Below are positions 20,235-25,253 of a stretch of DNA of 34,114 nt, one piece after another. Position 1 is the stretch's first letter. Every line of letters starts with the position of its first letter. The DNA lies in the NCBI GenBank assembly GCA_025350245.1, contig JANXYG010000017.1, positions 1-34,114 of the forward strand, in the 5' to 3' direction. The notes under the pieces were generated by a model, which saw only the letters and a program-made list of their open reading frames with translations, was not told where the DNA came from and did no database searches. This DNA comes from Betaproteobacteria bacterium (lineage in GTDB: Bacteria; Pseudomonadota; Gammaproteobacteria; Burkholderiales; Ga0077523). The translations under genes and the position numbers were made by a program.

Positions 20235-21962
20235 ATGACCGATGCAACGACAGATTCGGACGCCGACCCGGGTGCGCCGATGGAGCGTCTGCTGGCGCTG
20301 CTGCTGCCGCCCGCAGACGCCGCATCGGTGCCATTCGCGACGTTGATGGGTGCAATCGTCGCCGCGATGCGCGATTCGCCGGCACCGTTCGAGGCGATCC
20401 TGCGCGAGCTGTATCGCGAGCAGTACGCCTTCTGGCAGCGATGGCTGCTGCCGTCGCCCGGTGACGAACCCGGCGCCTCGGCGGACGAACCGACGGCGCG
20501 CCCCGACCCGCCGCCATTCTTCGCCATGGTGGCGGAGCAGCACGGGATCTGGAACCGGTGGGCAGCAGGCATGGCCAAGGCCATGGACGGCAACGATCCA
20601 CAGCGGCAGCGCGTGCGATTCATGCTCCGCCAGTGGAGCGCGGCGACCGCGCCGGCCAACTTTCTCGCCACCAACGCCGAGGCGATCGCGGCAGCCTCGG
20701 CAACCCACGGCGCGACGCTGGCACGAGGCCTGGAACGGGCGCGGGCGGATACGCAGGTGGGGCGCGTCACCCTGAGCAATGGTCCGGATTTCGCCGTCGG
20801 ACGCAGTCTCGCGTCCACCGGCGGCGCCGTCGTGCTCGAAACCGACGTGATGCAGCTCATTCAGTATCGGCCGCGACAGCCGCGGGTGGCGTCGCGCCCG
20901 CTGGTCATGGTGCCGCCATTCATCAACAAGTATTACATCCTCGACCTGCGTCCCGGGCGCTCGCTGGTCGAGTGGGCGCTGGACCAGGGTCAGCAGGTGT
21001 TCATGATCTCGTGGCGCAACGCCAGTGCCGCGATGGCTACGTCGACCTGGGAAGATTTCGTTCGCAAGGGCGTACTGGCCGCGGTCGACGCCGCCACGGC
21101 CATCACCGGTAGCGACCGCGCCAACGTGCTCGGATACTGCGTCGGCGGCACGCTCTCGGTCTGTGCTGCCGGCGTGGACGCCGCCGCCCCCAGCCCCGCA
21201 ATCAACAGCCTGACCCTGCTCGCGACGCTGCTGGACTACACCGACCCCGGTGAAATCGGGGTGTACATCGACGAGCGCTCGGTGCGTGACATCGAAAATC
21301 GCTTCGGCGACGGCGGCGTCGTGCCCGCGGCGACCGTTGCCAATGCGTTCGCCAGCCTGCGTCCGGGCGAACTGGTCTGGGACCCGATCGTGCACCACTA
21401 CCTGCTCGGACAAACGCCGCCCGCATCCGACCTGTTGTACTGGAACGACGACGGAACCGACCTGCCCGGCCCCGTGTATGCCTGGTACCTGCGCCACCTT
21501 TATCTGATGAACCGGCTGTGCGTGCCGGGCGGCGTGCACATCGGCGCCGTGCCCATCCACCTGTCGAAGATCGCGGTGCCGGCCTATGTGCTGGCGGCGC
21601 GTGACGACCACATCGTGCCGTGGGCCTCCGCGTTCCGCTCGTTGGCGTACCTCGGCGGGCCGTGCCGGTTCGTCCTGGGCGAGAACGGCCACGTCGGTGG
21701 CATCGTGAATCCCGCCGCGCGCGAGCGCCATGGCTACTGGACCCAGGGTGAACCCGCTCGGGATGCGCCGGCATGGCTGGCGTTGGCACAACACAACCGT
21801 GGCAGTTGGTGGCACGATTGGAACAAGTGGCTCGCGCCCCGGTCGGGGCGTTTGAGAGCGGCGCCGAAGCGACCCGGAAACCAGGCGCACCCGCCGCTGG
21901 AGGATGCGCCCGGGCGGTTCGTGCTCGAACGCGCGGCCGCGATGCCAGGAAACACGGCCTGA
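20235..21962 (+). CDS. phaC: Class I polyhydroxyalkanoate synthase PhaC
   Basis: This 575-residue enzyme polymerises (R)-3-hydroxybutyryl-CoA at the granule surface. The catalytic triad is visible: Cys302 in GYCVGGTLS, Asp457/458 in AARDDHIVPW, and His486 in GENGHVGGIVNP. Other landmarks are PPFINKYYILDLRPGRSLVE and WRNASAAMATSTWEDF. The N-terminal domain (about 190 residues) is longer and more acidic at its start than some relatives. It leads the phaC-phaB unit; phaB begins 49 bases after its stop. Confidence 0.96.
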   Translation: MTDATTDSDADPGAPMERLLALLLPPADAASVPFATLMGAIVAAMRDSPAPFEAILRELYREQYAFWQRWLLPSPGDEPGASADEPTARPDPPPFFAMVAEQHGIWNRWAAGMAKAMDGNDPQRQRVRFMLRQWSAATAPANFLATNAEAIAAASATHGATLARGLERARADTQVGRVTLSNGPDFAVGRSLASTGGAVVLETDVMQLIQYRPRQPRVASRPLVMVPPFINKYYILDLRPGRSLVEWALDQGQQVFMISWRNASAAMATSTWEDFVRKGVLAAVDAATAITGSDRANVLGYCVGGTLSVCAAGVDAAAPSPAINSLTLLATLLDYTDPGEIGVYIDERSVRDIENRFGDGGVVPAATVANAFASLRPGELVWDPIVHHYLLGQTPPASDLLYWNDDGTDLPGPVYAWYLRHLYLMNRLCVPGGVHIGAVPIHLSKIAVPAYVLAARDDHIVPWASAFRSLAYLGGPCRFVLGENGHVGGIVNPAARERHGYWTQGEPARDAPAWLALAQHNRGSWWHDWNKWLAPRSGRLRAAPKRPGNQAHPPLEDAPGRFVLERAAAMPGNTA

Positions 21963-22011
21963 CCGCACCCGGTCCGGACGCAACGACAAGAACATCGAGG
22001 AGAACGCAAAA

Positions 22012-22755
22012 ATGCAAAAGCGAAACGTGCTGGTCACTGGTGGCATGGGCGGATTGGGCGAATCGATCTGCACCAAGATGGCCGACGCCGGCTACCGGGT
22101 GGTGGTGACCTTCTCGCCATCGAACAAGACCTCGACCGAATGGCTCGCGGCGATGAAGCAGCGCGGCTACGACTTCGCCGGCGTGCCGTGCGATGTCGGC
22201 GACTTCGATTCGTGCGCGCGCGCCGTGCAGCAGATCGAGAAAGAGGTGGGGCCGGTCGACATCCTGGTCAACAATGCCGGCATCACCCGCGACATGACCT
22301 TCAAGAAGATGACCAAGGCCGACTGGGACGTCGTGATGCGCACCAACCTCGACAGTTGCTTCAACATGTCGAAGCAGGTGGTCGACGGCATGGTCGAACG
22401 CAATTGGGGGCGCGTCATCAATGTTTCGTCGGTCAACGGCCAGAAGGGCGCATTCGGCCAGACCAACTACTCGGCGGCCAAGGCCGGCATGCACGGCTTC
22501 ACCAAGGCGCTGGCGCTCGAGGTCGCGAAAAAAGGCGTGACCGTGAACACCATCTCACCGGGCTACATCGGCACCAAGATGGTGACGGCGATTCCGCAGG
22601 AGATCCTCGACGCCAAGATCCTGCCGCAGATCCCGCTCGGCCGGCTCGGCAAGCCCGAGGAGGTGGCCGGCTTGATCATCTACCTGGCATCGGACGAAGC
22701 CGCTTTCGTGTCCGGCGCCAACATCTCGATCAACGGCGGGCAGCACATGCAATAG
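22012..22755 (+). CDS. phaB: NADPH-dependent acetoacetyl-CoA reductase PhaB
   Basis: This 247-residue short-chain dehydrogenase reduces acetoacetyl-CoA to (R)-3-hydroxybutyryl-CoA. It shows the cofactor motif VTGGMGGLGESIC, the NNAG motif VNNAGITRDMTFKKM, the catalytic Ser/Tyr/Lys in NVSSVNGQ and YSAAKAG, and the tail SGANISINGGQHMQ typical of PhaB. GAGGAGAA seven bases before the ATG at 22012 is a strong ribosome site. It supplies monomer to the adjacent phaC; no phaA thiolase is in the window. Confidence 0.96.
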   Translation: MQKRNVLVTGGMGGLGESICTKMADAGYRVVVTFSPSNKTSTEWLAAMKQRGYDFAGVPCDVGDFDSCARAVQQIEKEVGPVDILVNNAGITRDMTFKKMTKADWDVVMRTNLDSCFNMSKQVVDGMVERNWGRVINVSSVNGQKGAFGQTNYSAAKAGMHGFTKALALEVAKKGVTVNTISPGYIGTKMVTAIPQEILDAKILPQIPLGRLGKPEEVAGLIIYLASDEAAFVSGANISINGGQHMQ

Positions 22756-22767
22756 GGTAGACGGCAC

Positions 22768-23146
22768 CAAAAAAAACCCCGGTAGTTGCCTACCGGGGTT
22801 GAACCCTTATCTTTCGATAAAGGGGGAGGAGCCATTCGGAGCGGGGCCATGGCCGCCGCTCCGTGCACATTCGCCGGGTCCGGAACCTTCACGGATGGCC
22901 AGCGCAAGGCGAAATCGGGTACTGCTCTTACTGCCTCTGTGGCGTGGTCACGAACCCTTTGCGCCAGCAAATCGCTCCACTACTGTTTTGGGACTGCTCG
23001 GGCAGAAATTCAAGCCCGTCTTGTCATGCTTCGGTGCCGCAATCCTTAAACTGACAGCCTACTCCTGTTCCGCGTTGATTCGATTACGAACCCTGTCGGA
23101 AAATATCGCTCTCGTTGCGATCGATCGATGAATTGATGCAATGCAC
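22768..23146 (-). ncRNA. Candidate small RNA between phaB and phaR
   Basis: This 558-base gap has no good ORF on either strand. On the minus strand a consensus-like promoter (23153-23181) and an intrinsic terminator (22769-22800) bracket about 380 bases. Predicted elements within it, read leftward, include hairpins with arms at 23014-23018/22999-23003 and 22856-22862/22838-22844, and a stem at 22804-22824 capped by a GAAA tetraloop. The terminator stem is capped by GCAA. I see no tmRNA, RNase P, 6S or SRP RNA signatures. The longest leftward frame without a stop is about 35 codons and lacks a start. Lying divergent from phaR, it could act on storage-polymer genes, but that is only position. 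Confidence 0.5.
22769..22800 (-). terminator. Intrinsic terminator, leftward
   Basis: A perfect 11-bp stem (arms AACCCCGGTAG at 22775-22785 and CTACCGGGGTT at 22790-22800) with a four-base loop is followed on the minus strand by a run of T (plus-strand A-run 22769-22776). The T-run is only on the leftward side, so it terminates transcripts coming from the right, not phaB. In the phaB direction the stem may still work weakly. Confidence 0.85.
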
Positions 23147-23152
23147 AATCTC

Positions 23153-23181
23153 ATAATATTGCCCTCTCGAAGACCTGTCAA
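23153..23181 (-). promoter_or_regulatory. Consensus-like sigma-70 promoter, leftward
   Basis: On the minus strand the -35 is an exact TTGACA (23176-23181), the spacer is exactly 17 bases and the -10 is TATTAT (23153-23158). In a genome this GC-rich, a pair this close to consensus is unlikely by chance. Initiation would fall near 23146, pointing away from phaR into the gene-free gap. Confidence 0.75.
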
Positions 23182-23189
23182 CGATTTCT

Positions 23190-23218
23190 TTGCGCGGCGC
23201 ACCATGCTTCGGTTACAG
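23190..23218 (+). promoter_or_regulatory. Possible phaR promoter
   Basis: TTGCGC (23190-23195), a 17-base spacer and TTACAG (23213-23218) form a modest -35/-10 pair about 95 bases before the phaR ATG. It is nearly back to back with the leftward promoter at 23153-23181, so the two could interfere or share a regulator. Confidence 0.35.
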
Positions 23219-23313
23219 TGAATTAGCAACGGCTTGTCGAGCCTTGAAGACGAAGGGGATTTGAGCAGCCGCTCAAGACCGTCGCATTCATCAACACGAC
23301 GCGAGGGCTGCAA

Positions 23314-23886
23314 ATGGCAGACAACATTCGCCTCATCAAGAAATATCCGAATCGCCGACTTTACGACACCGCGACCAGCAGCTATATCACGCTCACCGAT
23401 GTCAAGGCGCTGGTGCTCGAAGGTGTAGCGTTCAGGGTGGTGGACGCAAAATCCAGCGAAGACCTGACCCGTAGCATTCTGCTGCAGATCATTCTCGAGG
23501 AAGAGAGCGCCGGTACACCGATGTTCTCCTCGGACATGCTGACGCAGGTCATCCGGTTCTACGGTCATGCGATGCAAGGCATGATGGGCAACTACCTGGA
23601 AAAGAACGTCCAGACCTTCATGGAGATGCAGCGTCGCCTCCAGGAACAGTCGCTGGCGAAGTTCGGCGACAACCCGATGATCGGTTCCGAAGCCTGGACC
23701 CAGTTCGTGAAGATGCAGGGCCCGGCGATCCAGGGCCTCATGGGCACCTACCTCGAGCAGAGCGCCGCCACTTTTGTCGACGTTCAGCAGCAACTGCAGA
23801 AGCAGGCTCGCACCATGTTATCGGCGTTTCCGTTTCCCGCATTCGGCGCACCGGCGGGTACCGACGGCAGCTCCGACAAAGGGTGA
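23314..23886 (+). CDS. phaR: Polyhydroxyalkanoate synthesis repressor PhaR
   Basis: This 190-residue protein has the PHB accumulation regulator DNA-binding domain at the N-terminus ([32 protein letters not shown]) followed by two copies of the PHB-binding helical repeat ([20 protein letters not shown] and a second centred on [18 protein letters not shown]). PhaR represses phasin genes and its own gene, and is released by binding to the polymer. GAGGG lies six bases before the ATG. Its stop overlaps the rimO GTG start (GTGA). Confidence 0.95.
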
Positions 23887-25253
23887 GCCATCCCGCGTTC
23901 GGCCCGCGGGATGGCCGCGAGCGCAATGCGCGGTCGCCGAGGGCACCCACCGTCGGCTTCGTTTCCCTCGGGTGCCCCAAGGCGCTGGTCGATTCGGAAC
24001 AGATCGTCACGCGCCTGCGAGCTGAAGGCTACGACATCGCACCGAGCTACGAAGGTGCGGATCTGGTCGTGGTCAATACGTGCGGCTTCATCGATTCGGC
24101 GGTCGCCGAGTCGCTCGACGCCATCGGCGAGGCGCTGGCGGCGAACGGCAAAGTGATTGTCACCGGGTGTCTCGGCGCGCAAGGCAACGTGGTGCGCGAA
24201 ACACATCCTGCTGTGCTTGCCGTCACCGGACCGCACGCGACCGAGGCGGTGATGGATGCCGTGCATGCGCACCTGCCGAAACCACACGATCCGTTTCTCG
24301 ATCTGGTGCCACCCCAGGGCATCAAGCTGACGCCGAAGCACTATGCCTACCTGAAAATCTCCGAAGGCTGCAATCACCGCTGCACCTTCTGCATCATCCC
24401 GTCCATGCGCGGCGATCTCGTCAGTCGCCCGGTTGGAGATGTCCTCCAGGACGCCGAGAATCTGGTCAAGGCGGGGGTCAGGGAATTGCTGGTGGTGTCC
24501 CAGGACACCAGCGCCTACGGCGTCGACCTGAAGTACCGCACCGGATTCTGGAAGGGCCGTCCGGTGAAGACGCGCATGACAGAAATGGTGCGGCACATGG
24601 GCGAGCTCGGTGCTTGGGTGAGACTGCACTACGTCTATCCGTATCCGCATGTGGACGAGGTGATCCCGCTGATGGCGGAAGGGCGGGTCGTGCCCTACCT
24701 GGATGTTCCGTTCCAGCATGCCAGCGCCCGCATCCTGCGCCTGATGAAGCGCCCCGCCGCCGCCGAAAACAACCTCGCGCGGGTTCGTGCCTGGCGCGAG
24801 GTCTGCCCCGACCTCACCGTGCGCTCCACCTTCATCGTCGGCTTTCCTGGCGAGACCGAAGCGGAATTTGAAGAACTCCTCACCTTCCTGGAAGAGGCGC
24901 AGCTCGATCGCGTCGGCTGCTTCCCTTACTCGCCGGTGACCGGTGCCGCGGCGAACAGCCTGCCCGATCCGGTTCCGGATGACGTCAAGCAAGACCGCCT
25001 TGCCCGCCTGATGCAGGTGCAGGAGCGCATCTCTGCCGCACGCCTGTCGCGGTGGGTAGGACGCGAGATCGACGTGCTGGTCGACAAGGTGGATGGCAAT
25101 ACCGCGCAGGCGCGTAGCACCGCCGATGCTCCGGAGATCGACGGGCGCGTGTACGTGTCGCAGGCGCGGTGGCTGCGCGCCGGTGAGTTCGCGCGCGTGC
25201 GCGTGACCGGTGCCGACGAACACGACCTGTTCGCGGATTCGCTCACGGTGTGA
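23883..25253 (+). CDS. rimO: Ribosomal protein S12 methylthiotransferase RimO
   Basis: This 456-residue radical-SAM enzyme adds a methylthio group to Asp of ribosomal protein S12. The N-terminal UPF0004 domain has its cysteines in [24 protein letters not shown] and VTGCLGAQG. The radical-SAM cluster motif CNHRCTFC gives Cys163, 167 and 170. A C-terminal TRAM domain begins near [12 protein letters not shown]. The start is GTG at 23883, overlapping the phaR stop. Confidence 0.95.

Follow-up and report, generated by a model that had tools for sequence, protein, structure and literature searches.

A leftward transcription unit is predicted between phaB and phaR in a Betaproteobacteria bacterium (order Burkholderiales; GCA_025350245.1, contig JANXYG010000017.1), and it ends in a conserved double-hairpin RNA element of 66 nt (22769..22834, minus strand), recognized by conservation, covariance model and fold. 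The unit is probably a phasin-mRNA-derived, PhaR-controlled double-hairpin small RNA. In half of its genus the element is the predicted 3' end of a phasin gene; in the window, by which we mean the whole analyzed stretch of 34,114 nucleotides, promoter and element stand without such a gene. We infer that the unit is likely a trans-acting RNA.

The leftward unit and its conserved 3' end

The unit lies divergent from phaR (23314..23886, plus strand; NCBIfam TIGR01848 PhaR, 177 bits at a cut-off of 109.45), its predicted regulator, and convergent with phaB (22012..22755, plus strand; NCBIfam TIGR01829 acetoacetyl-CoA reductase, 364.3 bits at a cut-off of 302.1). Also among the neighbors is rimO, which scores above its NCBIfam cut-off, and the ORF at 20235-21962 exceeds the Pfam cut-off for PhaC_N. 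This PHA synthase ORF leads directly to phaB (20235-22755), with a gap of only ~50 bases and no phaA there.

An earlier note on this DNA had pointed to an exact TTGACA, a 17-nt spacer and TATTAT on the minus strand, and further downstream to a GAAA-capped stem and an 11-bp stem with a GCAA loop and a T-run. All of these were recovered. The sigma-70-type promoter (23153..23181, minus strand, read from 23181 to 23153) has 11 of 12 matches and is the sole promoter-like site in 21500-24500, where shuffles average 0.7. The perfect 11-bp stem with its loop and T-run, at 22800-22775, is one of three terminator-like sites in the same interval, with 2.3 expected, and the GAAA loop caps a stem of 8 bp (22823-22804). 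Taken singly, the promoter and terminator matches are near chance level; they rise above it because they are conserved within the genus and beyond. The predicted unit spans ~380 nt from promoter to terminator, and the conservation of its ends supports the proposal of a leftward unit with its own promoter and terminator, divergent from phaR.

The family is represented by 12 genomes, which belong to a single genus. All 11 besides the window's own match the final 65-80 nt of the unit at 83-100% identity, and a search of the same sensitivity matched the promoter block in 6 of the 11. In the genus alignment, the promoter is present in all 11 genomes, the window's own included, in which a contig covers the site (the contig of G010 ends short). 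A lack of conservation in near relatives had been named beforehand as grounds for giving up the unit; promoter and stems both proved to be conserved in the genus.

Hairpin 1 (22804..22823, minus strand) has 8 bp and a GAAA loop, which takes the form GNAA across the genus elements; 99.6% of its cells are paired, and both sides have changed in five of its eight pairs. Hairpin 2 (22769..22800, minus strand) is the predicted intrinsic terminator, with both-side changes in 8 of 11 pairs. Compensatory changes, which the earlier note had advised looking for in an alignment of relatives, are present in both stems. In front of hairpin 1 lies CUCCUCC (22825..22831, minus strand), identical in 12/12 genus rows and unpaired in the predicted fold, which would be the seed for ribosome-binding sites. 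Over 36 aligned element rows, 97.8% of cells pair and 13 of 19 pairs show both-side changes. The covariation score of 0.428 (0.146 in shuffles, 0/500; at most 0.092 with partners slid by 1-3 columns) comes from these 36 rows, of which 34 are distinct and one is a partial antisense match, in a model-fitted alignment that is biased in the model's favor. The fold of the last 66 nt also beats that of shuffled sequences (z -4.51, 0/200 as good).

Genomic context of the element and predicted PhaR control

When 300 order genomes were searched for an exact 28-base pattern, the 9 with a match all belonged to the own genus; the idea of a genus-only RNA was dropped when a covariance model showed a wider family. 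Model R1, built from the 12 genus elements, gave matches at E 0.01 or better in 96 of 250 order genomes. Taking one locus per genome outside the genus, the best 23 R1 loci include 22 with an opposite-strand phaR within 1.5 kb and 14 with a phasin ORF directly upstream of the element. The phasin HMM behind these locus counts was built partly from the same loci, and Pfam served as a separate check: Phasin_2 was found in 9 of 10 upstream ORFs tested (L070 being the exception) and in 3/3 more from later loci.

With model R2, built from 35 rows, 148 of 399 order genomes gave a match at a cut-off of E 0.001, the weaker matches including RF02278-type loci. At 48.5 bits or more, there were 56 matches in 53 of the 399 genomes among the matches listed. 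Twenty-one of these fall outside the training rows; phaR adjoins 17 of them, a phasin ORF lies upstream in 14, and one or the other is found in 19. PhaR-linked loci come from nine other Burkholderiales families (f12, f17, f19, f23, f24, f36, f39, f42, and f48). The element is nevertheless far from general, with PhaR in 265/399 order genomes versus the element (at least 48.5 bits) in 53/399. Two strong R2 matches, L112 (55.5 bits) and one on contig C35 of the own genome (54.7 bits), have no pha gene nearby, so the double-hairpin layout also occurs away from pha loci; three others without a pha gene (L120, L122, and L123) score 47-48 bits.

Several single loci were also recorded. The strong own-genome match just named (L088, 1739-1802 on contig 35) is a further element with this double-hairpin layout and stands just before an ORF matching mandelate racemase/enolase-like families. 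A similar element in G006 (L091, 1546-1613; R2 score 37.1 bits) likewise has no pha gene beside it and lies just before an ORF. Two phasin genes located away from phaR, L115 (G034) and L119 (G194), have an element copy of their own, and both ORFs exceed the Phasin_2 cut-off.

A context-blind scan with one pattern over 84,980 species genomes, which overlap with the covariance-model sets, returned 53 stretches. Of these, 37 adjoin phaR, 29 lie behind a phasin ORF, and 41 show either context. Under a strict test, which asked for a T-run and a GC-rich stem immediately after the pattern, 39/53 stretches remained, all within the 41 pha-linked ones and none among the 12 others (0/12). Ten of those 12 are titled as coming from outside Betaproteobacteria, and the remaining two are from Azonexus and Hydrogenophaga. 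In three unrelated records (L136, L149, and L170), the pattern was found inside long inverted repeats around CTCCTCC[CT]CCTTTAT, with no terminator.

The element follows the phasin ORF at a distance of 3-30 nt in one set of 29 loci and of 0-127 nt in another of 28, the latter from other or the same genomes. As in small RNAs from mRNA 3' ends, the terminator is shared with an upstream coding gene in the relatives; in the window that gene is absent. Computation thus places the element as an RNA of pha loci that in many relatives would form the 3' end of the phasin mRNA.

The promoter itself is flanked by two predicted PhaR operators. BS1 (23189..23205) lies upstream of the -35 box with two mismatches to YTKNTGCRNYGCANMAR, and BS2 (23133..23149) lies over the expected transcription start with one mismatch. 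Ralstonia PhaR is reported to bind the phaP1 promoter directly upstream of the -35 box and around the start, with the motif YTKNTGCRNYGCANMAR (PMC12849132), and a PhaR homolog of Herbaspirillum is reported to protect a region containing TG[N]TGC[N]3GCAA (PMC3206438). By sequence, the window has the phaP1-type arrangement of palindromes upstream of the -35 box and around the start. Outside the genus, 14 of the 23 loci have a phasin gene behind such a promoter; the window has none there.

We surveyed the operators at 49 loci with phaR in front, leaving out L070, L112, L115, L119, L120, L122, and L123, which have no phaR in front, and G010. A match with at most two mismatches occurs between phaR and the element at 48 of the 49 loci, where base shuffles predict 2.87, and at 47 it starts within 14 nt after the -10 box. 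The two-operator layout, with an additional match of at most three mismatches 22-27 nt upstream of the -35 box, is seen at 46. L068 has the operator and no clear promoter, and L077 has the promoter and no operator at two mismatches. Over the whole window, operator matches are not enriched (6 versus 4.78 by chance); because this frequency is at chance, the case for the operators rests on position and conservation. The tie to storage-polymer control that the earlier note had suspected gains support from these conserved predicted operators.

Probable loss of the protein and alternative readings

Within the genus, a long ORF fills the gap in G001, G005, G006, G007, and G009, and a fragment is found in G010. 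Three of four genus ORFs submitted to Pfam match Phasin_2 over the cut-off; the exception is the G010 fragment, which scores E 5.8e-16 against an HMM made from relatives. Searching all frames with the phasin HMM, we found no phasin ORF in the gaps of the window, G002, G003, G004, G008, and G011. Two Phasin_2 genes are found at other places in the own genome. In phasin-bearing genomes, the phasin ORF begins within a stretch like GCAGTGAACAA that looks like a third PhaR operator; this stretch is still visible in the intergenic regions of the phasin-less G002, G003, G004, G008, and G011.

Nineteen of 48 phaR-linked loci, among them the window, lack the phasin ORF but retain promoter and RNA. On a tree of the 48 PhaR proteins, the phasin state changes at least eight times, six of these changes being forced by well-supported branches. 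The changes could be losses or gains, and we favor loss. At seven phasin-less loci (L083, L084, L085, L101, L105, L107, and L111), the predicted start lies only 32-71 nt before the element, and the predicted free-standing RNA would measure 110-149 nt, with weak -10 boxes in four. Together, phasin-bearing and phasin-less loci make up a natural series leading from mRNA tail to independent RNA gene, and they allow a direct test of whether selection preserves the protein half or the RNA half.

The proposed mechanism runs as follows. Free PhaR would repress the sigma-70 promoter through the two flanking predicted operators. Once polymer is made, PhaR would move to the granules and the promoter would open, as reported for Ralstonia phaP1. 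Comparison shows that the unit in many relatives encodes a phasin ahead of the element, and that in the window and 18 of 47 other phaR-linked loci of the tree it lacks this ORF and comprises the element only; the locus in the window's genome would now be a pure RNA gene. The 3' end may be released as a stable RNA of ~66 nt, probably by RNase E as is reported for Bordetella S17, and Hfq may take part. Cleavage is favored because the short distance between phasin ORF and element leaves little room for a promoter of its own in most loci. The unpaired CUCCUCC would then pair with Shine-Dalgarno sequences and repress uptake and catabolic mRNAs, and carbon-storing cells may thereby lower their carbon use.

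The alternative that fares best sees in the element a mere terminator and 3' stabilizer of the phasin mRNA, which at phasin-less loci would be a relic or a stop for stray transcription. The strong intrinsic terminator at its end and its position close behind the phasin ORF (at the 3-30 or 0-127 nt given above) fit this explanation, and the trans function is a conjecture on our part. However, a terminator needs neither an invariant unpaired CUCCUCC nor a covarying hairpin 1, and the element persists in the 19 of 48 loci without the ORF. Between the phasin-less G003 and G008, furthermore, the element is 93% identical (62/67 columns), compared with 66% for the gap and 78% for the promoter block. 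We therefore regard the terminator-only explanation as unlikely.

Much less probable still is the proposal of the earlier note that the full ~380-nt RNA is a structured trans-acting sRNA. The span from promoter to terminator has the proposed length, and the whole 381 nt fold better than shuffled sequences (z -3.19, 0/100 as good), but this good fold is due to the last 66 nt. The 310-nt middle is unremarkable (z -1.27, 9/100 shuffles as good) and unalignable across the genus, and a structured 380-nt RNA was rejected because this middle is neither conserved nor unusually stable. Moreover, the predicted leader is reduced to 32-71 nt at the seven phasin-less loci. What stands of the proposal is the span; the conserved RNA is confined to the last 66 nt, and the rest is an unconserved leader (22835..23146, minus strand, taking transcription to begin 7 nt past the -10 box), whose place the phasin ORF occupies in relatives. 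That the unit still codes for protein, as a diverged phasin or a small leader peptide, is suggested by the phasin in five genus genomes and the fragment in a sixth, but it is very hard to credit given the lack of coding room at the seven loci and the phasin HMM results: a best match of E 0.17 for any frame in the window gap, which leaves no detectable phasin remnant and agrees with the earlier view that the gap holds no credible ORF, and nothing better than E 1.5 in a joint search of the six phasin-less genus genomes.

The phasin-mRNA-derived small RNA may be part of something larger, a polymer-sensing RNA regulon, to which we give an even chance. Here PhaR, drawn to the granules, would switch on both a coat protein and an RNA brake on the ribosome-binding sites of carbon uptake and catabolic genes; the RNA would be the durable half, and repeated loss of the ORF would have left free-standing PhaR-controlled sRNA genes. 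If true, mRNA tails would have turned into RNA genes more than once along the same path. The state of the carbon store would also be linked to post-transcriptional control by way of a repressor that senses the polymer directly, and one double-hairpin sRNA would gain a clear input signal.

Comparison with known RNAs

At curated thresholds, Rfam found nothing in the window. Relaxed thresholds yielded 13 weak matches in 22700-23330, the best four of which all cover the unit's final 64-105 nt. These four score below their cut-offs: RF02278 (31.9 bits at a cut-off of 50; 34.3 and 33.6 bits for the genus rows G007 and G005), anti-hemB RF02837 (27.5 at 49.5), Spot 42 (27.3 at 80), and ncS54 RF02871 (23.4 at 43). 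The covariance-model search suggested earlier thus returned no family at threshold, and the RNA can be called undescribed to that extent; it is not wholly unlike known RNAs, since it has the RF02278 layout in common. In the literature searched, mostly open access with subscription papers largely outside its scope, we found no phasin-linked double-hairpin RNA, which is no proof that none is described. No start region of phaB, phaC, phaR, or rimO stood out as a target; GGAGGA or GAGGAG occurs in 22 of 37 listed phaB start regions, as for common ribosome-binding sites.

The closest likeness is to RF02278 (ncS03, ncS05, ncS27, and ncS62 of Burkholderia cenocepacia), whose members are described as short RNAs with two hairpins, the second a terminator, and an unpaired CU-rich 5' end able to cover ribosome-binding sites (PMC5688073, PMC4603805). 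The window element has all of these parts and matches the full model below threshold. Over-expression of the family is reported to inhibit growth (PMC4603805, PMC5688073), and over-expressed ncS27 reportedly slows growth and acts on carbon and amino acid use (PMC5688073, PMC10987360). However, in most of the listed RF02278 loci the first loop contains another CU-rich stretch, where the genus element has GNAA, and the genomic place differs: none of the best 30 RF02278 loci lies beside phasin, phaR, phaB, or phaC. By analogy, the element may work like a double-hairpin sRNA, yet it is not an RF02278 member by that threshold.

Anti-hemB RF02837 shares a CUCCUCC stretch, a hairpin and a terminator with the element, at a sub-threshold score. 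It is a separate RNA, over its cut-off in 133 of 200 order genomes; in G006 and G160, for example, it has another place than the element, and none of 10 anti-hemB loci examined lies beside pha genes.

S17 of Bordetella pertussis has the same layout as the element, a likeness drawn from its published description (PMC11722255). It is reported to arise from a sigma-A promoter as a 190-nt precursor that RNase E cuts to a stable 67-nt form, enhanced by Hfq, and to pair with ribosome-binding sites through a CU-rich 5' site (PMC11722255). As described there, S17 differs in lying between a glycosyltransferase gene and coq7 instead of at pha genes and in being lower in bvg and hfq mutants (PMC11722255). 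MmgR of Sinorhizobium meliloti resembles the element as an sRNA of polymer control that is reportedly repressed by PhaR/AniA (PMC8401924, PMC9049629). Compared by description, it is an alphaproteobacterial, trans-encoded RNA that represses phasins, whereas the element appears to be part of a phasin mRNA (PMC8401924, PMC9049629).
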